A stretch of 64,000 nucleotides of DNA from an uncultured Olsenella sp. (GTDB taxonomy: Bacteria > Actinomycetota > Coriobacteriia > Coriobacteriales > Atopobiaceae). Both the position numbers and the translations under genes were made by a program. This document shows, in pieces, positions 34,010-43,611 of the stretch. The stretch is from the NCBI GenBank assembly GCA_900314535.1, contig OMVT01000008.1:1-64000 (forward strand), given 5' to 3'. The notes below the pieces were generated by a model. That model saw nothing but the letters and a program-made list of their open reading frames with translations, was not told the DNA's origin and did not search any database. How positions within the stretch are numbered: position 1 is the first letter of the stretch; each line of letters opens with the position of its first letter.

Positions 34010-34592
34010 GGCTGTCCTCCTTTTCTGCAAGGGCTGGGGGCTGATAAGGCAGGCGTCTGAGCTCCTTTGGAAAAGATGTCCTCTATCTCCGGGCAGCCAT
34101 TGATGGCTTCCGCCGGAGCTGCTGCCTAAGCTGAGTTTGGAATCATTTCAGCCTGGCAGCTCGATCCATCGGAGAACGCAAGAATTCGTCGGCAAGCGAA
34201 GCCGCACCTTCCGCTGTGCCACCTTCTTGCCGGGAAGCTGTCCTGCATCTTCGCTGGACCTGAGGCATATGGCCAGAAATGTATCCGGATGTCTATGTGT
34301 GCGTCCTCCAGGGCGCACCTGCAACGTGTGGGCGTCGTTCTGGAGAGGTGGCCAAAAGGAAAGAGTTTTCTGCCTGCGGCATATTCTGGCAGGCAGACGG
34401 CCATATTTGGTTTCATGGAGTGGCCCATCTGGCAGGATATGTGGCTTATTGGAGCAAAAAAGTTCGACCAATCTCACAATTTATCCCTTCCAGATGAGTT
34501 TGCAGCGGTATACTCTTTGCGTAAATCAACGCCGTATAACTTTGGGGACCGCAGGACCAGACTCATCCTGCTGCGACCAAGAAAGGACACGC
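34010..34592. other. Long feoA leader/intergenic region, no gene seen
   Basis: About 580 bp, lower in GC than surrounding genes. Open frames here lack ribosome binding sites and recognisable motifs. At 34460-34478 AAGTTCGACCAATCTCACA matches the 19-bp iron-gene element at its ends but is degenerate. A TATACT (about 34509) is a possible -10 for feoA. Confidence 0.4.
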
Positions 34593-34871
34593 ATGGAGGT
34601 AGATATGGCACGGATAGGTGCAGGCCAGAACATGGCATCCCATGTCTCCGCGGCAAACCTGCCGCTGTCCATGGTGGAAGCGGGACAGACGGCCGTGGTT
34701 TCCAAGGTCCGTGGCTCGAAGGAGCTCAGGCAGCATCTTGCCGAGATGGGCTTCATCGAGGGAGCTGAAGTCAAGGTCGTGAGCCGCGTGAACGGCGACT
34801 GCATCGTCTCTGTCAAGGGTGCGACGTTCGGCCTCAACAGGACGATGACATCACATATCTCTGTGTATTAA
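34593..34871 (+). CDS. feoA: FeoA-family ferrous iron transport protein (first copy)
   Basis: 92 aa SH3-like FeoA domain protein: LSMVEAGQTAVVSKVRGSKELRQHLAEMGFIEGAEVKVVSRVNG, then FGLNRTMTSHISV. FeoA is a small cytosolic partner of FeoB. Two starts are possible: ATG 34593 with AAAGGA 5 nt upstream, or ATG 34605 with GGAGGT 4 nt upstream. First gene of feoA-feoA-feoB. The two FeoA copies are dissimilar, suggesting old duplication and distinct roles. Confidence 0.9.
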   Translation: MEVDMARIGAGQNMASHVSAANLPLSMVEAGQTAVVSKVRGSKELRQHLAEMGFIEGAEVKVVSRVNGDCIVSVKGATFGLNRTMTSHISVY

Positions 34872-34911: not shown

Positions 34912-35154
34912 ATGCCAACTCTGAGAGACGTGAAGGTAGGGCAGAGCGCAACGGTCGCGAAGCTCACGGGCACCGGTGCAATCAAGCGCCGCATCATGGA
35001 CATGGGCCTCACCAAGGGCACCGATGTCTATGTGAAGAAGGTGGCACCTCTCGGCGACCCGATTGAGCTCACCGTGCGCGGCTACGAGCTTTCCGTCCGC
35101 AAGGATGAGGCTGCCTGCGTCGAGGTCGAGGACGTCGCAGACGGAGAGCGCTAG
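34912..35154 (+). CDS. feoA: FeoA-family ferrous iron transport protein (second copy)
   Basis: 80 aa FeoA domain: LRDVKVGQSATVAKLTGTGAIKRRIMDMGLTKGTDVYVKKVAPLGDPIELTVRGYELSVRKDEA, the canonical core. AAGGAG precedes the ATG. Lies between the first feoA and feoB. The 126-nt gap to feoB contains two copies of the recurrent iron-gene element, so feoB probably also has its own regulated promoter. Confidence 0.94.
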   Translation: MPTLRDVKVGQSATVAKLTGTGAIKRRIMDMGLTKGTDVYVKKVAPLGDPIELTVRGYELSVRKDEAACVEVEDVADGER

Positions 35155-35182
35155 GGGGAGACCCCCTTTTTATTTGCCCAAC

Positions 35183-35201
35183 AAGTAAGCCATAACTAAC
35201 A
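35183..35201 (+). promoter_or_regulatory. Iron-gene 19-bp element, feoB site 1
   Basis: AAGTAAGCCATAACTAACA. Same 19-bp layout (AAGTA near one end, CTAACA at the other) as the sites before both flavodoxin genes and the FeoB-associated gene. A TAGCAT 16 nt downstream could be the -10, placing the element over the -35 region. Confidence 0.6.
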
Positions 35202-35214
35202 ATTGTTTCCAACA

Positions 35215-35233
35215 AAGTAGCATTTGGCTAACA
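35215..35233 (+). promoter_or_regulatory. Iron-gene 19-bp element, feoB site 2
   Basis: AAGTAGCATTTGGCTAACA, second copy 32 nt after site 1, still upstream of feoB and overlapping its putative -10. Confidence 0.55.
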
Positions 35234-35280
35234 GGTGGGCACAGCGTGGCACCATATTCGCTCCACAAGGAAGGCAGGAA

Positions 35281-37950
35281 ATGGCGGATAGCATCTATAT
35301 CGGTCTTGCAGGAAACCCGAACTGCGGCAAGACCACGCTCTTCAACGAGCTGACCGGATCGAACGGCTTTGTCGGCAACTGGCCGGGCGTTACGGTCGAG
35401 AAGAAGATGGCAGACTGGCGAGAAGACAAGAACGTGACGTTTGTCGACCTGCCGGGCATCTACTCCCTCTCCCCGTACTCTCCTGAGGAGGTCGTCTCCC
35501 GCGACTATCTTCTCGGAGATCGTCCTGATGCCGTGATCGACCTCATCGACGTCACGAACCTCGAGCGCAACCTCTACCTCACGACCCAGGTCCTGGAGAC
35601 AGGACGTCCGGTCGTCGTCGGCCTCAACATGTGCGACCTTCTGAAGGAGCGCGGCGACGTCGTCGACACGAAGAAGCTTGCCGAGATGCTCGGCGTGCCT
35701 GTGGTCGAGGTCTCCGCTCTCCACGACAAGAACCTCGACGAGCTCGTGAAGCAGGCCATCGCTGCAGCCAAGGCTGGCAAGGCGACTGCGGGCACGAAGT
35801 GCTTCTCTCCTGAGGTCGAAGAGGCCTTGGGCAAGATCTCGAAGACGATCGAGCGCAAGGCACAGCCTGAAGAGCTCCGCTGGTACACAATCAAGGTCTT
35901 CGAGCGCGATGCCCAGGCCATCAAGCCCCTTGGCCTCTCCAAGGCCGATCTCGATGCCTGCGAGAAGGTCATCTCTGCACTCGAGAAGGAGCGTGACGAC
36001 GACGCCGAGTCCATCATCACGTCCGACCGCTATGACTGGATCGCCGATGTGATGGCGTCCTGCGTCAAGAAGGCACCGAAGAAGCTCTCGACGTCCGAGA
36101 AGATTGACCGCATCGTCACGAACCGCTGGCTCGGCATCCCGATCTTCGTCGCTGTCATCTGCCTTGTCTATTACATCGCAATCGGCACGGTCGGCACGGC
36201 TGCCACGGACTGGGTCAATGACCAGCTCTTCGGCGACGGCTTCTTCGTGAGCGCCACGGGCCAGGATGCCTACGACGAGGACAACGAGGCGTGGACCGAC
36301 AACCACTACGCCGACCAGATCTCTGGCTACATCGCAGCAGCTGACGCTGCCGGCGTCGACACCGATGGTGTCCAGGAGGCCATCGACGCCGAGGATCCGA
36401 CGGACGAGGATGCAGTCACGATTGCTGACTTCGAGGAAGCGGCAGATGCAGCAGGTGTCGTTGCCACGGACGTCCCGACGACGGACGAGGATGGCAACTA
36501 CACCGATACCGACGGCAATGTGATCACGACGCTCGACTCTGATGGCAGCCCTGTTGCAGCTGCCGGCCAGACGATCGATGCAATCGATACGGTCACGCTC
36601 GAGGACTTCGAGACGGCAGTCGACGGCATGGCAGACGAGCCCGATCCTGCCGACTACGATGGCTTCGTTCCTTCCATCCCTGACGCTGTGACGGATGCCC
36701 TCACGGCAGCCGGCGCATCCGACATCGTGATCTCCCTTGTGGTCGAGGGCGTCATCGGCGGCGTGGGCTCGGTCCTTGGCTTCATCCCGCAGATGTTCGT
36801 GCTCTTCGTGCTTCTCTGCTTCCTTGAGGACTGCGGCTACATGTCCCGTGTCGCCTTTGTCATGGACCGCGTGTTCCGCCGCTTCGGCCTCTCCGGCAAG
36901 TCCTTCATCCCGATGATTGTCTCCTCTGGCTGCGGCGTTCCGGGCGTCCTCTCGACGAAGACGATCGAGAACGAGAAGGACCGTCGCATGACGGCCATGC
37001 TCACGACCATGATTCCGTGCTCCGCAAAGACCCCGATCATCGCCCTTGTGATGGGCGTCCTCGCCGGCGGCTCCACGATGTGGTGGGTCGCGCCTATGTT
37101 CTACTTCATGGGCCTTGCTGCCATCATCATCTCCGCCATCATGCTCAAGAAGACGAAGCCGTTTGCAGGCGAGCCTGCTCCCTTCGTTATGGAGCTTCCC
37201 AACTACCACTTCCCGTCCATACGCTCCTGGTGGCTGCATGTGTGGGAGCGTGTGAGCGCCTACATCAAGAAGGCAGGTACGATCATCTTCGCTGCAGCTG
37301 TCGGCATCTGGGTGCTCTCGCGCTTCGGCTTCGCTTCCTGGGAAGGCGGCTCCGGCTCCTTCGGTTTCCTCGAGGGCATGGAAGGCGCTGGCGACGACTA
37401 CATGGACTACTCGCTGCTCGCCGCTGTGGGCAATGCTCTCGGCTTCATCTTCGCGCCGCTCGGCTGCGACTACTGGCAGGCAACCGCTGCTTCCATCTCT
37501 GCCCTCATCGCAAAGGAGAACCTCGTCGGCACGTTCGGCTCGCTTTACGGCCTCGGCGATGCCACGGAGAACTCCGTCACGATGTGGAATGGCTTCGCTG
37601 CCATGTTCACCGATCCTGCTGGCGTCCTTCACGCCGGTGCCATGTGCGCCTTCGTCGCCTTCAACATGCTCGACGCTCCGTGCTTCGCAGCCATGGGCAC
37701 GATCCGTTCCCAGATGAACGACCCCAAGTGGTTTTGGTTCGCAATCGGCTATGAGTGCGGCTTCGCCTGGGTTGTCGGCTGCATCATCAACCAGCTCTGG
37801 GAGCTCTTCGTCCTCGGCAACTTCGGCTTCTGGACCGTCGTCGCCTTCGTGCTGCTTGCCCTCATCCTGTTCCAGCTCTTCAGGCCGATGCCGAAGTGGG
37901 ACAAGGAAGACGACAAGATCCTGACGACGCTGGATGCAGACGTCGCCTAG
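35281..37950 (+). CDS. feoB: Ferrous iron transporter FeoB with large acidic insertion
   Basis: 889 aa, longer than typical FeoB (about 650-780). N-terminal G domain: GNPNCGKTTLFNELTG (G1), DLPGIYSLSP (G3), NMCDLL (G4 region). The membrane part has VGSVLGFIPQMFVLFVLLCFLEDCGYMSRVAFVMDRVFRRFGLSGKSFIPMI, SSGCGVPG and the second Gate repeat. Between the first TM (to about residue 320) and the second gate helix (from about 469) lies a roughly 140-residue Asp/Glu-rich insertion with DEDGN and DTDGN loops, predicted extracytoplasmic. Start ATG 35281 after AAGGCAGGAA. Fe2+ import; terminal gene of the feoAAB cluster. Confidence 0.95.
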   Translation: MADSIYIGLAGNPNCGKTTLFNELTGSNGFVGNWPGVTVEKKMADWREDKNVTFVDLPGIYSLSPYSPEEVVSRDYLLGDRPDAVIDLIDVTNLERNLYLTTQVLETGRPVVVGLNMCDLLKERGDVVDTKKLAEMLGVPVVEVSALHDKNLDELVKQAIAAAKAGKATAGTKCFSPEVEEALGKISKTIERKAQPEELRWYTIKVFERDAQAIKPLGLSKADLDACEKVISALEKERDDDAESIITSDRYDWIADVMASCVKKAPKKLSTSEKIDRIVTNRWLGIPIFVAVICLVYYIAIGTVGTAATDWVNDQLFGDGFFVSATGQDAYDEDNEAWTDNHYADQISGYIAAADAAGVDTDGVQEAIDAEDPTDEDAVTIADFEEAADAAGVVATDVPTTDEDGNYTDTDGNVITTLDSDGSPVAAAGQTIDAIDTVTLEDFETAVDGMADEPDPADYDGFVPSIPDAVTDALTAAGASDIVISLVVEGVIGGVGSVLGFIPQMFVLFVLLCFLEDCGYMSRVAFVMDRVFRRFGLSGKSFIPMIVSSGCGVPGVLSTKTIENEKDRRMTAMLTTMIPCSAKTPIIALVMGVLAGGSTMWWVAPMFYFMGLAAIIISAIMLKKTKPFAGEPAPFVMELPNYHFPSIRSWWLHVWERVSAYIKKAGTIIFAAAVGIWVLSRFGFASWEGGSGSFGFLEGMEGAGDDYMDYSLLAAVGNALGFIFAPLGCDYWQATAASISALIAKENLVGTFGSLYGLGDATENSVTMWNGFAAMFTDPAGVLHAGAMCAFVAFNMLDAPCFAAMGTIRSQMNDPKWFWFAIGYECGFAWVVGCIINQLWELFVLGNFGFWTVVAFVLLALILFQLFRPMPKWDKEDDKILTTLDADVA

Positions 37951-37969
37951 TCACCGTGCGTGTTTGGCA

Positions 37970-38000
37970 AAGCGCTGCTGCACCACAGCGGCAGCGCTTC
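37970..38000 (+). terminator. Stem-loop after feoB
   Basis: AAGCGCTGC and GCAGCGCTT pair perfectly, followed by TCTG. A weak T tract leaves some read-through possible into the following small ORF and AraC gene. Confidence 0.55.
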
Positions 38001-38022
38001 TGCTATGTTGGGAGCACACCTT

Positions 38023-38109
38023 ATGGAACTTCTCGATGCAGTCTTTTTCGCCTCTGCGGTGAGCCTTGCCTGCGTCAAGATCCGCGACCGGCTGGAAAGG
38101 AGCCTGTGA
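38023..38109 (+). CDS. Possible 28-aa small protein coupled to AraC gene
   Basis: ATG at 38023 opens a 28-codon frame (starts MELLDAVFFASAVSL and ends RDRLERSL). GGGAG lies 8 nt upstream, and its TGA overlaps the next gene's ATG (TGATG). The hydrophobic first half and basic end suggest a small membrane peptide or a translational-coupling leader. Such short frames can be chance, but the stop/start overlap is suggestive. Confidence 0.4.
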   Translation: MELLDAVFFASAVSLACVKIRDRLERSL

Positions 38110-39137
38110 TGGACGATACGAACCAGCCACGTGCCTGGAACAGCGCTCAGCCTGTCACGAGCTTCTCGCTCACGAACGAGGCACATCGTGCCGCGAGCAC
38201 GGTCCACTACCAGGTCGCAGCAGATGACGGCACGCGTGGAGAAGCGACGATCGTCGAGCTCTTCCCCGGCATCTCGCTTGTGCAGTTCGAGCTCAAGAGC
38301 AAGGTTCTGGGCGAGTTCTATGAGGTGCCAGCGCGCCTGAACCTCCATGATACGATCGATATCGTCTACATCAAGCAGGGTTCGGTCGAGTTCGACCGCG
38401 AGGACGAGCTGTCTTCTGTCATCCAGATCGGCGAGGTCGGCATCGCGGCATCGGATGCGCGCCGGCTCGTGCTTAGGTGCCCGGTCGGCTATGTGCGCGG
38501 ATGTGCGATCGTGCTGGCACGTGCGATGCGTGCAGAGGCACGGCGTGTGCTCATGACCTTCGGGGTGGATCCTGCGGCCGTGCGCTCGCTTGCGCATGAG
38601 AAGGAGAAGCTCCATGTGGTGCCGGCTCGCCCCGAGCTCGTCGGCACGTTCGAGCTTCTGTGCTTCGGCCATGCCGAGGCATCGAAGAGCATGTACCGGC
38701 TCAAGGTGGTTGAGGCGCTCCAGCTGCTCACGAAGGCAGACCCGAAGGCTGCACAGCCCCAGGACATGGGCCACAGAAGGACGACGAGGCTCTCGCACGT
38801 CGAGCTGGCTTCAAGGGCGCAGCAGATCATGATGGGGAACCTCGCATCGCCGATTACGATCACGACCTTGGCAACGATGTGCGGTACCTCGCCGACCGTG
38901 CTCAAGGAAGCGTTCCGCGAGACCTTCGGCCAGCCGATCTATCAGTGGTACCGTGCCTACCGCATCAAGCAGGCGGCAGAGACCCTGAAGACGACCGATC
39001 TCACGATTGCAGAGGTCGCCTCCTCGGTGGGCTATGCGAATCCCTCGAAGTTCACGAAGGCCTTCTCTGACACGATGGGGGAGACGCCCCATGCCTGGAG
39101 GAGCAGGACCTTGGCAGAAAGAGGCGTTGCAGGCTGA
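38109..39137 (+). CDS. AraC-family transcriptional regulator
   Basis: 342 aa. The C-terminal two-HTH AraC domain occupies about residues 235-335: IMMGNLASPITITTLATMCGTSPTVLKEAFRETFGQPIYQWYRAYRIKQAAETLKTTDLTIAEVASSVGYANPSKFTKAFSDTMGETP. The N-terminal about 200 residues form a sensor domain without a recognised motif, of the style seen in siderophore/PchR-like AraC regulators. GGAAAGGAG precedes ATG 38109. Its position right after feoAAB suggests an iron-related role, which is inference. Confidence 0.88.
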   Translation: MDDTNQPRAWNSAQPVTSFSLTNEAHRAASTVHYQVAADDGTRGEATIVELFPGISLVQFELKSKVLGEFYEVPARLNLHDTIDIVYIKQGSVEFDREDELSSVIQIGEVGIAASDARRLVLRCPVGYVRGCAIVLARAMRAEARRVLMTFGVDPAAVRSLAHEKEKLHVVPARPELVGTFELLCFGHAEASKSMYRLKVVEALQLLTKADPKAAQPQDMGHRRTTRLSHVELASRAQQIMMGNLASPITITTLATMCGTSPTVLKEAFRETFGQPIYQWYRAYRIKQAAETLKTTDLTIAEVASSVGYANPSKFTKAFSDTMGETPHAWRSRTLAERGVAG

Positions 39138-39346
39138 AGGGAAGCTCCTGTCCTGCCCTCTGGAGACATAGGACATTTCGCGAGGCTGTCTGGAGACAAT
39201 CTGGACAGCCTCTCCGGTATGGGCATAAAAGACATGTACAGAAATAAAGAAGACATGTGCAATATGCTTGCATAGCAGCGGCAAGCTCCTTACGCTTATG
39301 CAGGCAGGATGCAGTGGCATCCAATTGCGGAACAAGGGAGAGTCGC

Positions 39347-40324
39347 ATGGCAGAATATACCGGGGCGCCTGTGGGCGTCGTCTTCATGAAGCCGATCTTC
39401 GTGCCGAAGATCTGGGGTGGCAGGAAGCTCGAGACCGAGTTCGGCTACAAGATTCCGGATGGGAAGATCGGCGAATGCTGGGCCATCAGCGCCCATCCGG
39501 CAGGGGACTGCACGATCACCGGCGGCCCCTTTGACGGCATGCGCCTCTCCGAGCTCTGGGATCAGCACCGCGAGCTCTTCGCGAACTGCGAAGGCGACCA
39601 GGGACGCTTCCCTCTCCTCATCAAGATCCTCGATGCCTCCGACAGCCTCTCCGTCCAGGTGCACCCGGATGATGCCTATGCCGGAGCGCACGAGAACGGC
39701 TCGCTCGGCAAGCGCGAGTGCTGGTATGTCGTGCATGCAGACGAGGGTGCCCAGATCATCATCGGCCAGCATGCGAAGAATGCCGAAGAGTTCCGTGGCA
39801 TGGTCGAGGCAGGGGAGTGGGACAGGCTCCTCAACAAGGTCCCCATCCACACCGGAGACTTCTTCGAGGTGCTGCCGGGCACGATCCATGCCCTCTGCGC
39901 TGGCACGCTCGTGATCGAGACGCAGCAGTCGTCCGATGTCACCTATAGGGTCTATGACTACGACCGTGTGCAGCCGGATGGCACGAAGCGCCAGCTCCAT
40001 ATTGACCAGTCCTGCGATGTCGTGGACTACGCCCAGGTGCCGCCGAAGGACGGCAAGGTCCGCGCTCCCGAGGTGGACGGCGTCACTGAACTCATGGACT
40101 GCCCGAAGTTCGTTGTCGATCGCGTGCGCATCGACGGGAAGAAGGCAATCGAGCAGAAGTGGCCGTTTATGTGCGTGAGCGTCTATGCAGGTGAGGGCGC
40201 TGTCACCGTATGCGGCACGCGCTACCCGCTCAGGAAGGGCTCCCACTTCCTTGCGCTCTCCGATGCCAGCACGATGGAGTTCGAGGGGACGCTTTCCCTC
40301 ATCACCTCGCATCTGCCCGAGTAG
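39347..40324 (+). CDS. manA: Mannose-6-phosphate isomerase, class I
   Basis: 325 aa zinc-dependent cupin enzyme interconverting mannose-6-P and fructose-6-P. Visible: KPIFVPKIWGGRKLE, ECWAISAHPAGD, the zinc-site motif LSVQVHPDD, KRECWYVV, and GDFFEVLPGTIHALCAGTLVIETQQSSDVTYRVYDYDR with the second set of ligands. Short form, typical of Gram-positive ManA/Pmi. AAGGGAG lies 6 nt before ATG 39347. Monocistronic. Confidence 0.93.
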   Translation: MAEYTGAPVGVVFMKPIFVPKIWGGRKLETEFGYKIPDGKIGECWAISAHPAGDCTITGGPFDGMRLSELWDQHRELFANCEGDQGRFPLLIKILDASDSLSVQVHPDDAYAGAHENGSLGKRECWYVVHADEGAQIIIGQHAKNAEEFRGMVEAGEWDRLLNKVPIHTGDFFEVLPGTIHALCAGTLVIETQQSSDVTYRVYDYDRVQPDGTKRQLHIDQSCDVVDYAQVPPKDGKVRAPEVDGVTELMDCPKFVVDRVRIDGKKAIEQKWPFMCVSVYAGEGAVTVCGTRYPLRKGSHFLALSDASTMEFEGTLSLITSHLPE

Positions 40325-40351
40325 GGAAGAGCCTCATACGTTTGAGCCAGG

Positions 40352-40386
40352 AGGGCTGGATGGGCTTCCATCCAGCCTTCTTTCCA
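40352..40386 (+). terminator. manA terminator
   Basis: AGGGCTGGATGG and CCATCCAGCCTT form a 12-bp stem with a GCTT loop, followed by TCTTT. Confidence 0.88.
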
Positions 40387-40408
40387 TTTGTGGACAGTCT
40401 ATGGAGAC

Positions 40409-40427
40409 AAGTAAACCAGAGCTAACA
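40409..40427 (+). promoter_or_regulatory. Iron-gene 19-bp element before flavodoxin 1
   Basis: AAGTAAACCAGAGCTAACA. Fifteen nt downstream lies TAAGTT (40443-40448), a candidate -10. The same spacing and hexamer occur before the second flavodoxin gene. Confidence 0.65.
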
Positions 40428-40469
40428 CATTGGCATCTCTGCTAAGTTAGTCACAGCAAACAAATCGAC

Positions 40470-40486
40470 GCGGAGCAGCGCTCCGC
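40470..40486 (+). promoter_or_regulatory. 5' UTR hairpin of flavodoxin 1
   Basis: GCGGAGC-AGC-GCTCCGC, a 7-bp stem conserved exactly before the second flavodoxin gene. It is about 15 nt upstream of the ribosome binding site and may stabilise or attenuate the mRNA. Confidence 0.5.
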
Positions 40487-40503
40487 TTCCCGAGGAGGAT
40501 TCC

Positions 40504-40911
40504 ATGAGCAAGGTGGCAGTGGTCTTCTGGTCCCAGAGCGGCAATACGCAGAGCATGGCAGAAGCCGTAGCAGAAGGTGCCGGCACGGAAGCCATCGAGG
40601 TATCCTCCTTCTCCGCAGCAGATGTGGCGAACTACGATGCCTTTGCCTTCGGCTGCCCTGCCATGGGTGCCGAGGAGCTCGAGTCCGATGAGTTCGAGCC
40701 GGTCTGGGATGAGTGCGTCCCTGAGCTCAAGGGCAAGACAGTCGCACTCTTCGGCTCCTATGGCTGGGGCGACGGCGAATGGATGGAGACCTGGAAGTCC
40801 GAGGCAGAAGATGCCGGAATCAAGGTCGTCTCCACCGTCATATGCAATGACGCACCGGACGACGATGCGCTCTCGCAGCTCAAGGATCTTGGCGAAGAGC
40901 TCGCCCAGTAA
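40504..40911 (+). CDS. Flavodoxin (copy 1)
   Basis: 135 aa short-chain flavodoxin. FMN phosphate loop SQSGNTQSMAEAV (residues 10-22), and FGSYGWGDGEWMETW as the isoalloxazine-contacting 90s loop. Low-potential electron carrier that substitutes for ferredoxin, typically under iron limitation. GAGGAGG precedes the ATG. It shares gene, 5' UTR and 3' UTR with copy 2, 728 bp downstream. Confidence 0.94.
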   Translation: MSKVAVVFWSQSGNTQSMAEAVAEGAGTEAIEVSSFSAADVANYDAFAFGCPAMGAEELESDEFEPVWDECVPELKGKTVALFGSYGWGDGEWMETWKSEAEDAGIKVVSTVICNDAPDDDALSQLKDLGEELAQ

Positions 40912-40984
40912 TACCTGATTCGTTTTTACGCAGTCCTCCAGACACCGGACCCCTCTCCCCGGCTGTCACAGAGGGCAATCTTCA

Positions 40985-41016
40985 AGCCGCCGGCGACCCC
41001 CTATCGCCGGCGGCTG
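40985..41016 (+). terminator. Flavodoxin 1 terminator
   Basis: AGCCGCCGGCGA and TCGCCGGCGGCT form a 12-bp stem with a 7-nt loop. A near-identical structure follows copy 2. Confidence 0.75.
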
Positions 41017-41132
41017 CTTTGCATTGCGATGCGGCGGATCCTCAACCTCGGCTTTTCCACCATCTGCCTTCAGCTCGATAGGGGAGCAAGGCTAACAGGA
41101 ATATATCCTGATTGTGAATAGATTGTGGATGC

Positions 41133-41151
41133 AAGTAAAACCAAGCTAACA
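41133..41151 (+). promoter_or_regulatory. Iron-gene 19-bp element before flavodoxin 2
   Basis: AAGTAAAACCAAGCTAACA, with TAAGTT (41167-41172) 15 nt downstream as for copy 1. A further half-site GGCTAACAGG lies at 41090-41099. Confidence 0.65.
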
Positions 41152-41195
41152 GCCAGGAATATCCGGTAAGTTAAACGCATCAAACAAAACGATCT

Positions 41196-41212
41196 GCGGA
41201 GCAGCGCTCCGC
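41196..41212 (+). promoter_or_regulatory. 5' UTR hairpin of flavodoxin 2
   Basis: GCGGAGC-AGC-GCTCCGC followed by CTTTTCC. Identical stem to copy 1; the T run here makes an attenuator possible. Confidence 0.5.
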
Positions 41213-41231
41213 CTTTTCCTAGGGGGTTTCC

Positions 41232-41639
41232 ATGAGCAAGGTCGCAGTTGTCTATTGGTCCCAGAGCGGCAATACCCAGGCCATGGCAGAAGCGGTGGCA
41301 GAAGGGGCGGGAACCGAGGCCATCGAAGTCTCTTCGTTCTCTGCTGCAGATGCAAAGAACTACGATGCCTTTGCCTTCGGCTGTCCGGCAACGGGTTCCG
41401 AGGAGATCGAGCCCGACGAGTTCGAGCCGGTCTGGAACGAGTGCGTGCCTGAGCTTGGCTCGAAGCCTGTCGCGCTCTTCGGCTCCTATGGCTGGGGCGG
41501 CGGCGAGTATCTGGATACCTGGAAGTCCCAGGCTGAAGATGCCGGCGTCAACGTCGTCTCCGCCGTTGCTGTGAACGTCGAGCCTGAAGACGATGCGCTC
41601 GGGGAGCTCAAGGCTCTCGGCCAGAAGCTTGCCCAGTAG
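41232..41639 (+). CDS. Flavodoxin (copy 2)
   Basis: 135 aa flavodoxin with SQSGNTQAMAEAV and FGSYGWGGGEYLDTW, clearly paralogous to copy 1 (same length, most residues identical). Differences cluster in the second half (YLDTWKSQAEDAGVNVVSAVAV), near the FMN ring and partner surface, so the two may differ in potential or partner. AGGGGG precedes the ATG. Own promoter element and terminator. Confidence 0.94.
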   Translation: MSKVAVVYWSQSGNTQAMAEAVAEGAGTEAIEVSSFSAADAKNYDAFAFGCPATGSEEIEPDEFEPVWNECVPELGSKPVALFGSYGWGGGEYLDTWKSQAEDAGVNVVSAVAVNVEPEDDALGELKALGQKLAQ

Positions 41640-41708
41640 CATCCGATCCGTTGATACGGCCCTTGTGGCAGCGGACCCTCTCCCCGATGCCATGAAGGGC
41701 AGACATCA

Positions 41709-41740
41709 AGCCGCCGGCGACTCCCTATCGCCGGCGGCTG
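41709..41740 (+). terminator. Flavodoxin 2 terminator
   Basis: Same 12-bp AGCCGCCGGCGA/TCGCCGGCGGCT stem as after copy 1, part of the duplicated unit. Confidence 0.75.
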
Positions 41741-41842
41741 CCTTGTGTTCTGAAAAAGCGCCTGAAGATGCTATATATATCGGCATCCATCTGCACGCCC
41801 TGCACCAGCAGTGTAGAAGAAGACGCGCGATAGGAGGCTGCC

Positions 41843-41986
41843 ATGCCCGGTCCTGCGGAAGTCTTTGTCATGTTCTGGATCTTCGGAATGTTTGCCCTTG
41901 CAGCCCTTGCCATCTTTGCCGTGAAGCGGCTCTTCGAGAGGCATGGGAAGAAAGGCGAGAAGAAGGATGGCGGGAACGGGGAATAG
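41843..41986 (+). CDS. Small membrane protein, 47 aa
   Basis: ATG 41843 with TAGGAGG 6 nt upstream opens MPGPAEVFVMFWIFGMF, a single hydrophobic helix, followed by a highly charged tail (KRLFERHGKKGEKKDGG). One-pass membrane protein with a cytoplasmic basic tail; function unknown. A strong stem-loop follows 90 nt after the stop. It lies just upstream of a histidine-kinase remnant. Confidence 0.6.
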   Translation: MPGPAEVFVMFWIFGMFALAALAIFAVKRLFERHGKKGEKKDGGNGE

Positions 41987-42077
41987 GCGCTGCTTCGGGC
42001 GGCTGCGCCTGAGCATCGCCCGGGCGGGATATGGACCTGCACCCGAGATGACCTCCAGCCTGGAATACGACAGGAAT

Positions 42078-42108
42078 GGAGCTGGAAGGCACAGGCCTTC
42101 CAGCTCCT
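42078..42108 (+). terminator. Terminator after 47-aa membrane protein gene
   Basis: GGAGCTGGAAGGC and GCCTTCCAGCTCC form a perfect 13-bp stem with a 3-nt loop. Confidence 0.6.
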
Positions 42109-42114
42109 CGTGTC

Positions 42115-42401
42115 CTGATGGGAGGATATCGATCGGGATGCATGAGGAGCCTGAAGGCAGGGCCATGGTCACGGTCGCAGACACGGGCTGCGGCATGGAC
42201 GAGGAGACGAAGCGGCGCGTCTTCGAGAAGTTCTATCAGGGCGACCCATCGCATGCGACAAAGGGCAATGGCCTCGGCATGGCACTGGCGAAGAGGGCAG
42301 CAGATGTGACGGGCGCCACGATTGGTCTTGAAAGCGAAGCGGGCCATGGGACAATGTTCACAATCACGCTGCCTGCTGCCTCTCAGGACAAAACGGTCTG
42401 A
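42115..42401 (+). pseudogene. Histidine kinase remnant (ATPase domain only)
   Basis: About 90 codons encode the C-terminal part of a HATPase_c domain: VTVADTGCGMDEE (G1 box), KRRVFEKFYQGDPSHATKGNGLGMALAKRAADVTG (F and G2 boxes) and SEAGHGTMFTITLP. The N box, the DHp domain with the phosphoacceptor His, and any sensor are absent; a terminator lies directly upstream. This is what remains of a sensor kinase gene; no response regulator is adjacent. It may conceivably be expressed as a fragment, but nothing supports that. Confidence 0.75.
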
Positions 42402-42430
42402 TGCAGCATTCGACACGATAGAGAGATAGA

Positions 42431-42463
42431 AAAGGAGCCGGAAGCGTGCAAGCTTCCGGCTCC
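42431..42463 (-). terminator. gpmA terminator
   Basis: On the minus strand, GGAGCCGGAAGC and GCTTCCGGCTCC form a 12-bp stem followed by TTTTC. Confidence 0.85.
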
Positions 42464-42486
42464 TGGCATCTCTTTGAGAGATTGAA

Positions 42487-43251
42487 CTACTTCTTGGCCT
42501 TGCCCTGGTTGGCAACAGCGTTGATCTTTGCCTCGATCGTGGCAGGATCGCCGATGTAGTGCTTGTCGAGGATGTTCCAGTCCTTATCGAAGGTGTAGGA
42601 GCAAGGAACGCCCGTCGGGATGTTGACCTTGAGAATCTCTTCCGGCGTGAGGTGCTCGAGCTGCATGACAAGAGCACGCAGGGAGTTGCCGTGAGCAGCG
42701 ATGAGGACACGCTTGCCGCTCTCGAGCTGCGGCTTGATCTCCTGCTCGAAGTACGGCCATGCGCGGGCGATGGTGTCCTTCAGGCACTCGGTGTAGGGGA
42801 GGTCCTCCTGCGGGACGTCACGGAACATCGGCTGGACGTGCGGGTCGCGCTCGTCGCCCGGCGTCAGTGCAGGCGGCTGGACGTCGAAGGAACGACGCCA
42901 GATGAGGACCTGCTCCTCGCCGTGCTCCTCGGCAGCCTTTGCCTTGTTGAGGCCCTGGAGAGCGCCGTAGTGACGCTCGTTGAGACGCCAGGTCTTGTGG
43001 ACAGGCAGCCATGCGCGGTCCATCTCGTCGAGGACGATGTTCAGCGTGTGGATGGCGCGCTTCAGAAGCGAGGTGTAGCACACGTCGAAGTCATAGCCCT
43101 GCTCCTTGAGGGCCTTGCCGCCAGCTGCAGCCTCAGCGCGGCCGGTGTCGGTGAGGTCGACGTCCGTCCAGCCGGTGAAGAGGTTGAGCTTGTTCCACTC
43201 AGACTCACCGTGACGAATGATGACAAGATGCATGTTCTGATCGTCTGCCAT
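42487..43251 (-). CDS. gpmA: 2,3-bisphosphoglycerate-dependent phosphoglycerate mutase
   Basis: 254 aa glycolytic enzyme interconverting 3- and 2-phosphoglycerate. Visible: the phosphohistidine motif [18 protein letters not shown], the [23 protein letters not shown] segment, [23 protein letters not shown] and the second catalytic His in [22 protein letters not shown] lies before ATG 43251. Divergent from the FeoB-associated gene, whose iron-type element lies between the two starts and could affect gpmA too. Confidence 0.95.
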
Positions 43252-43332
43252 AGCGTTCCTTTCCTCGTTGCGCCAATGCGAACTTTTGCCGGACCCGGGC
43301 CATACCCCGTCCGGGAACTGCCTAGAAGGGTA

Positions 43333-43351
43333 TAGTAACCCGTAGCTAACA
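43333..43351 (+). promoter_or_regulatory. Iron-gene 19-bp element before FeoB-associated gene
   Basis: TAGTAACCCGTAGCTAACA. It directly overlaps a TATAGT (-10-like, 43331-43336), so a bound protein would block transcription initiation. Confidence 0.6.
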
Positions 43352-43383: not shown

Positions 43384-43611
43384 ATGAATATTCTAGACGT
43401 CCTTATCATACTTGCGGTCGTCTTTGCATTTGTCCTTGCTGTGCGTTCGCTCATCAAAGGCTCAAAGAACGGCTGCGCCGAGTGCGGAAGCAGGGGTTCC
43501 TGCACTGCTGCCGCGACCGGAAGCCCCTGCCCTGCGGCAGAAGATATGCTTGCGCGTGCTGAGAAGGCGGTCGATGAGGGAAAGCTCCCGAAGGTCCAGA
43601 ACAGGCGCTGA
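43384..43611 (+). CDS. FeoB-associated Cys-rich membrane protein
   Basis: 75 aa: one N-terminal TM helix ([23 protein letters not shown]) followed by a Lys/Cys-rich tail with [10 protein letters not shown] and C further on, the layout of the FeoB_associated family. Members are normally encoded beside feoB; here the gene is about 5.4 kb away from feoB. The C-terminal [17 protein letters not shown] is an extra helix. AGGAGG precedes the ATG. The upstream 19-bp element matches those of feoB and the flavodoxins, supporting a common iron response. Confidence 0.82.

Follow-up and report, generated by a model that had tools for sequence, protein, structure and literature searches.

A short palindromic element recurs upstream of the ferrous iron transporter gene feoB, two flavodoxin genes and a gene for a FeoB-associated protein in an uncultured Olsenella sp. 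(contig OMVT01000008.1, positions 1 to 64,000; this whole stretch of 64,000 nucleotides is referred to as the window). The element is predicted, very probably correctly, to be the operator of a DtxR-family iron metalloregulator, and a DtxR protein encoded on another contig of the same genome, C84, is its most likely binder. The sites, their conservation and spacing, their gene context and the presence of the regulator gene were all observed directly in the genomes compared.

The element in the window and in its genome

The original prediction described five 19-mers, all on the + strand, starting at positions 35183, 35215, 40409, 41133 and 43333, and these positions proved correct. Searching of both strands for AGTA-N8-CTAACA gave exactly these five matches in the window and no others, compared with a mean of 0.01 and a maximum of one match in 100 dinucleotide shuffles of the 64-kb sequence. 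The genes behind the sites had been called iron-related, and Pfam assignments (FeoA twice, FeoB, two flavodoxins and FeoB_associated) back this. A TAAGTT reported at both flavodoxin genes indeed starts after exactly 15 nucleotides (nt) in each case; it forms the left half of another, weaker copy of the element, located 35 nt from the first at both genes. At feoB, the second copy follows the first at a distance of 32 nt, and since feoA2 is separated from feoB by a terminator-like hairpin, the latter gene probably has a promoter of its own under the element copies. With the matrix described below and a laxer cut-off of 9, nine matches were found in the window, eight of them within the feo/flavodoxin locus, versus a mean of 2.48 and a maximum of 6 in block-shuffled windows. 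A candidate site upstream of feoA1 is uncertain; upstream of feoA, relatives carry a cluster of sites.

In the whole 2.41 Mb genome, the exact pattern matched seven times, versus once for the reversed-pattern control. Five of the seven matches precede iron genes, in line with the predicted link to iron, but the other two do not: one, on contig C85, lies 31 nt 5' of a gene for a CydD-like ATP-binding cassette (ABC) exporter that is followed by a CydC-like gene, and one, on contig C32, lies 36 nt 5' of a gene for a small membrane protein of no confident family. A looser pattern, AGTWA-N8-TWACW, was found at eight places in this genome (10 rows) versus five control matches, and its matches on contigs C30 and C62 look like chance and were set aside. 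A strong box, AGTTAGCCGTATTTTACT (score 19.4; C46:12806, equivalent to L451:3807-3824), is situated 72 nt before a methyltransferase gene, which is a possible further member of the regulon.

Scanning of relatives gave a divided outcome. Over 140 genomes of the same family, the exact pattern did not exceed its control (109 matches versus 196 for the reversed pattern) and was present in 73 genomes, with many matches scattered or intragenic, whereas the palindrome derived below did exceed control at feo loci. In three genomes (G000, G051 and G052) the exact pattern gave 14 matches versus 4 for the control. AGTA-N8-CTAACA is a genus-local form of the element; being too local, it was rejected as a family-wide search tool and a matrix was used instead. 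The exact pattern also precedes an enolase gene at two loci (L147 and L184, in genomes G044 and G117).

A conserved palindromic box upstream of feo genes

FeoB was found in 121 of the 140 family genomes, and a symmetric matrix was trained on the 1.5 kb upstream of the feo loci, oriented to the feoB strand, of the 30 best-matching of these. The resulting consensus is an 18-bp palindrome, AGTTAGCC-AT-GGCTAACT, with the half-site AGTTAG and the core TTAG-N6-CTAA. The earlier description of the element as an imperfect dyad therefore does not hold for its basic form: AGTA/CTAACA is a local variant, and the sites of relatives are palindromic. All 30 training loci carry a site with a score of at least 10, the 45 kb of upstream sequence containing 106 sites, a count that comes from the training loci themselves and is therefore not an independent test, whereas feoB coding sequence (78 kb) gave a single match at the same cut-off. 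Commonly, one cluster of sites is placed before feoA and a second before feoB. Each of 14 further loci of the family outside the training set had at least one upstream site scoring 10 or more, the lowest best score being 11.7.

The box extends well beyond the family. Among 47 held-out feoB loci from other families of the order, 45 had a site scoring at least 12 within 400 nt upstream, versus 0.1 per shuffled set, and at a score of 17 the count was 38 versus none. In the Bacillota, none of which contributed to the training, 48 of 65 loci had a site of at least 12 within 1000 nt, and 152 kb of feoB coding sequence contained no match. Shuffles were run on 61 of these loci (47 with a site versus 1.75 shuffled), while the site count, spacing and DtxR adjacency refer to all 65; the available upstream stretch is short in L387, L410, L418 and L441. 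Eight of nine Coriobacteriia-type loci, counted in 42 of 80 loci, had a site of at least 12. The box is present at loci of Collinsella aerofaciens, Enteroscipio rubneri and two Olsenella strains and at many loci of uncultured Clostridia, and it was found upstream of none of six Treponema and Lentisphaerota-type feoB loci.

The spacing of the half-sites is narrowly fixed. Allowing one mismatch at most, GTTAG-Nk-CTAAC occurred 109 times at N6 and 17 times at N10 in 77 loci of the family and order, with 0-4 occurrences at each of the eight remaining spacings in the range N2-N11. The Bacillota gave 159 at N6, 29 at N10, 18 at N2 and 0-2 at the rest. The excess at N10, and that at N2 in the Bacillota, may reflect overlapping copies. 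Tandem copies are most often 20-23, 25, 32 or 37-38 nt apart, a count that includes 57 of the 65 Bacillota loci. These regularities bear on the alternative that, instead of operators, the sites represent promoter elements or vestiges of promoters that were duplicated. CTAACA resembles a -35 hexamer by eye and the two flavodoxin promoters look duplicated, but the N6 dyad is fixed, several copies occur per locus in two phyla, and a promoter scan found no sigma-70-like match at the element sites; we therefore attach only a slight probability to it.

In genus g33 (L158, L164 and others), a variant of the box, AGTAAACCATAGCTAACA, was observed at the 3' end of a pair of ABC-exporter genes, and another copy precedes it by 31 nt; the exporter pair is divergent from an AraC gene situated some 3.7 kb off.

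Presence and absence of candidate regulators

The original prediction named a regulator of the DtxR or Fur type. Its DtxR half is supported by the conservation at feo loci, by gene adjacency and by the absence of Fur and AraC proteins from site-bearing genomes, but its Fur half does not hold in general, as the box is kept in Fur-less genomes. Fur (PF01475) was detected in 90 of 140 family genomes and in 86 of 120 genomes of the order, leaving 50 and 34, respectively, with no match, and these include near-complete genomes with strong sites. Genome G045, 98% complete and in two contigs, has four sites and no Fur candidate; G028, G163 and G171 likewise carry sites without Fur, all four genomes being 98-99% complete, and clear sites in the absence of Fur were also seen in G029, G144 and others. 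A fur gene thus does not accompany the box wherever it occurs, and Fur was ruled out as its general binder. That a Fur-family protein binds the box, as the Fur genes adjoining feoB in genera g34 and g26 might suggest, is accordingly barely credible. At the loci concerned in these two genera (G114, G116-G119, G053 and G054), the Fur-family gene stands next to feoB and DtxR-type boxes are present at the same loci; in G117 and G118 an AraC gene lies between feoB and the Fur-family gene.

In the window, an AraC-family regulator is encoded 3' of feoB and ahead of the flavodoxin genes, and a homologue lies 3' of feoB in G051 and other relatives. A monomer of such a protein could bind the asymmetric 19-mer through two helix-turn-helix motifs, and the sites of the window are indeed asymmetric and in one orientation. 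Nevertheless, 12 of the 30 site-bearing training genomes (G033, G039, G040, G042, G048, G053-G055, G114-G116 and G119) yielded no match to the AraC protein at 1e-10, the sites of relatives are palindromic and not directional, and in G128 the same 18-mer precedes a feo operon on the opposite strand. An asymmetric AraC-type site was rejected on these grounds, and we hold it to be very improbable that this regulator is the binder. A search for related loci with the AraC protein as query found nothing.

A DtxR domain, by contrast with Fur, was found in 139 of 140 family genomes, and at 1e-5 the C84 DtxR protein was matched in 116 of the 120 order genomes, although a handful of the matches are weak and perhaps represent paralogues. 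The four genomes without a match (G160, G210, G228 and G231) all consist of at least 170 contigs.

The gene neighbourhood points in the same direction. In family f2, which includes Enteroscipio, 20 of 25 genomes have a DtxR match no more than 3 kb from feoB, as judged by comparing coordinates by eye, and in 19 of the 20 it is downstream and on the same strand as feoB; in one of the 20, G218, the match is weaker and has an internal stop. In genus g18, a DtxR gene is arranged head-to-head with feo in three of five genomes (G033, G034 and G035, not G031 and G032). Among the 65 Bacillota loci, a DtxR homologue is located head-to-head upstream of feo in 21 and downstream in two more, and 18 of the 21 head-to-head loci have a site scoring at least 11 between the DtxR gene and feo. 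A site before the DtxR gene itself was found in three of 30 genomes (G050, G058 and G059) whose DtxR genes were examined for it, all from families f1 and f10. On contig C29 (L450:7061-10265), the Olsenella genome of the window additionally carries another feoB with another DtxR gene behind it, the product of which has His at the position of Cys102 of DtxR. No site of at least 10.5 was found in 14 kb around this pair, an internal negative that fits the proposed reading, and the pair possibly serves another metal.

The C84 protein and its metal

The C84 protein contains the PF01325 winged-helix domain and the PF02742 metal-binding and dimerization domain that define the DtxR/MntR family. It ends shortly after PF02742 and has no SH3-like C-terminal domain, a feature of IdeR and DtxR. 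When aligned with DtxR (1bi0), it has Asp at the position of Met10, Cys at Cys102, Glu at Glu105 and His at His106. The combination of Cys at position 102 with the Glu and the His was present in all 30 aligned proteins of the order and in all 12 from named records, and none of the aligned proteins has the Glu that replaces Cys102 in MntR. At position 10, the ten Bacillota proteins among those 12 have Met (four), Asn (four) or Asp (two). According to PMC10317159, Met10 together with Cys102 raises selectivity for iron, and MntR has Asp or Asn and Glu at these positions. Judged by its residues, the metal site of the C84 protein is of a mixed type, with an MntR-like Asp and a DtxR-like Cys.

The recognition helix reads VSKASVNKA(L/V) in the 30 aligned proteins, with VTKASVNKA in two genomes, and differs (KPSV) in most of the ten Bacillota proteins. 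The equivalents of Pro39 and Gln43 are Ala and Lys in the C84 protein.

These features bring up the possibility that the same DtxR-family protein senses manganese, as MntR does, with feoB and the flavodoxins forming part of a balance between manganese and iron. The Asp at the Met10 position, which is possible in a manganese-sensing MntR, the missing SH3 domain, a recognition-helix Lys shared with E. coli MntR, and the nearest NCBIfam model, which is MntR although below its cut-off, would all agree with manganese. So would the architecture of the B. subtilis MntR sites, which are likewise 18 bp long with two 9-bp repeats, each repeat pair binding one dimer (PMC11275975). On the other hand, position 102 is Cys and not Glu throughout the aligned proteins, several Bacillota members combine Met10 with Cys102, and the targets are ferrous transport and flavodoxin genes (manganese transporters were not searched for sites). 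We regard manganese as an unlikely signal and iron as the metal that the C84 protein would probably sense.

Besides the Asp and the MntR-like model, several observations weigh against an operator bound by an iron-responsive DtxR protein. The dtxR gene on C84 is not near feo and has no site in the surrounding 12 kb; three of the 21 head-to-head Bacillota loci have no site between the two genes; and G160, in 240 contigs, has sites and no DtxR match. A site of at least 12 is missing from 17 of the 65 Bacillota loci, two of which have less than 400 nt of upstream sequence; L290 and L422, the latter being the remaining Coriobacteriia-type locus, have no site, and L313 and L286 have weak sites only. 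In four of the 14 further family loci kept out of the training, all from genus g33, a single match (12.4-14.6) falls within feoB, at a position common to the four. A site right before a flavodoxin gene was seen only in the genus of the window (in the window and at L141), the flavodoxin genes of relatives not having been searched systematically. Finally, all sites of the window have the same orientation relative to the genes, and within the family 24 of the 30 feoB-proximal sites with A first have A as the gene-proximal end; a symmetric dimer needs no such orientation. Overlap with a promoter element could explain the one-way orientation, although no consensus promoter was found at the sites.

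Proposed mechanism

We propose that one DtxR dimer would bind each copy of the element, with two or more copies often present per promoter, and that dimers loaded with Fe2+ would sit on the copies over the promoter and block transcription. We infer binding by the C84 protein, iron as the metal and a repressive effect; repression is favoured over activation because of the usual behaviour of the family and the position of the sites. The repressed set would comprise feoB, probably feoA, the two flavodoxin genes and the gene for the FeoB-associated protein, and probably also those for the CydDC-like exporter and the small membrane protein. Flavodoxin stands in for ferredoxin when iron is short. 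Scarcity of iron would thus release DtxR, increase ferrous uptake and allow flavodoxin to replace ferredoxin.

Organization of the locus

The features of the locus and the candidate regulator are compiled in Table 1. Two nearly identical terminator-like hairpins of 12 pairs (40985-41015 and 41709-41739) lie 3' of the flavodoxin 1 and flavodoxin 2 genes, respectively, and the flavodoxin promoters, genes and terminators together look like a tandem duplication. Between flavodoxin 2 and a phosphoglycerate mutase gene, an open reading frame (41943-42401) resembles, by eye, the ATPase portion at the C terminus of histidine kinases and is apparently a remnant.

Table 1. Predicted operators and genes of the feo/flavodoxin locus (window coordinates) and the candidate regulator on contig C84.
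Feature	Position	Strand	Evidence
Weak candidate site, AGTTTGCAGCGGTATACT	34497..34514		Matrix score 12.1; 90 nt before feoA1 start (34605)
feoA1	34605..34871	+	PF04023, 60.9 bits
feoA2	34912..35154	+	PF04023, 76.3 bits
Terminator-like hairpin between feoA2 and feoB	35153..35169	+	Hairpin
feoB operator copy 1 (predicted), AGTAAGCCATAACTAACA	35184..35201	+	Score 18.7
feoB operator copy 2 (predicted), AGTAGCATTTGGCTAACA	35216..35233	+	Score 14.9
feoB, ferrous iron transporter	35281..37950	+	TIGR00437, 490.9 bits (cut-off 315.65); Pfam FeoB domains
AraC-family regulator, 3' of feoB	38109..39137	+	PF12833
Flavodoxin 1 operator copy 1 (predicted), AGTAAACCAGAGCTAACA	40410..40427	+	Score 17.5
Flavodoxin 1 operator copy 2 (predicted), AGTTAGTCACAGCAAACA, contains TAAGTT	40445..40462	+	Score 16.4
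Flavodoxin 1	40504..40911	+	PF00258
Flavodoxin 2 operator copy 1 (predicted), AGTAAAACCAAGCTAACA	41134..41151	+	Score 15.5
Flavodoxin 2 operator copy 2 (predicted), AGTTAAACGCATCAAACA	41169..41186	+	Score 13.9
Flavodoxin 2	41232..41639	+	PF00258
FeoB-associated gene operator (predicted), AGTAACCCGTAGCTAACA	43334..43351	+	Score 17.5
FeoB-associated Cys-rich membrane protein	43384..43611	+	PF12669, 32.5 bits (cut-off 27)
Candidate regulator, DtxR protein, 140 amino acids	C84:54039-54458		PF01325, 46.5 bits (cut-off 26); PF02742, 56 bits (cut-off 27)

Wider meaning

It is somewhat probable that a DtxR clade with this mixed MntR/DtxR metal site and the box AGTTAG-N6-CTAACT is the main regulator of ferrous iron in the order and in many anaerobic Bacillota, with Fur being secondary or absent. 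If so, this would run counter to the usual view that low-GC (guanine plus cytosine) Gram-positive bacteria leave iron to Fur. The statement that these bacteria use DtxR proteins for manganese only (PMC10317159) would then need qualifying, and for a large fraction of anaerobic gut bacteria a single matrix would predict the iron-regulated genes. The clade would also be a natural setting in which to test how members of the DtxR family change their metal selectivity and their choice of operator, through Asp or Met at position 10 combined with Cys102 and through the Ala and Lys of the recognition helix. Neither the box nor its regulator in Coriobacteriia or Clostridia was found in the titles or abstract openings returned by searches of the open-access literature, and both may be in print elsewhere. 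What is described here would best be called a DtxR-family operator and regulon with a box of its own, spread across two phyla.

Comparison with known systems

The element had been described as unlike the classic IdeR boxes, which is right as regards its conserved outer AG/CT and the lack of GG after TTAG, but not as regards spacing, since TTAG-N6-CTAA has the spacing of a single-dimer IdeR site. The iron box of IdeR/DtxR is TTAGGTTAGSCTAACCTAA, and a 14-bp single-dimer consensus, TTAGGNNNNCCTAA, has been proposed for IdeR (PMC8464063); compared with the latter, the spacing is identical, whereas TTAG is mostly followed by C (0.51) and not G. The four CCTAA repeats of the 19-bp IdeR box are not found in our consensus, which has one TTAG-N6-CTAA pair with the outer AG/CT. 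Both systems share the equivalents of Cys102, Glu105 and His106 and iron genes as targets. They differ in that separate copies, commonly 20-40 nt apart, occur here instead of two overlapping half-boxes, and in that the C84 protein lacks the SH3 domain and has Ala and Lys in place of Pro39 and Gln43.

The MntR system of B. subtilis (PMC11275975, a preprint) resembles the present one in its 18-bp sites made of two 9-bp inverted repeats, each bound by one dimer and arranged in serial copies, and in its short protein without an SH3 domain. In contrast, at mneP just 1 bp separates the copies, and these govern manganese efflux, whereas the C84 protein has Cys at position 102 and iron genes as targets. 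Treponema TroR (PMC2628430) is likewise a DtxR-like repressor with an 18-bp dyad operator, and TroR of T. denticola responds to both manganese and iron, although operator and targets differ from those described here. Lastly, the delta-proteobacterial Fur box (PMC545781) was likewise found by a comparative method and also has feoAB and flavodoxin genes as targets, but its sequence, WTGAAAATNATTTTCAW, and its regulator family are different.

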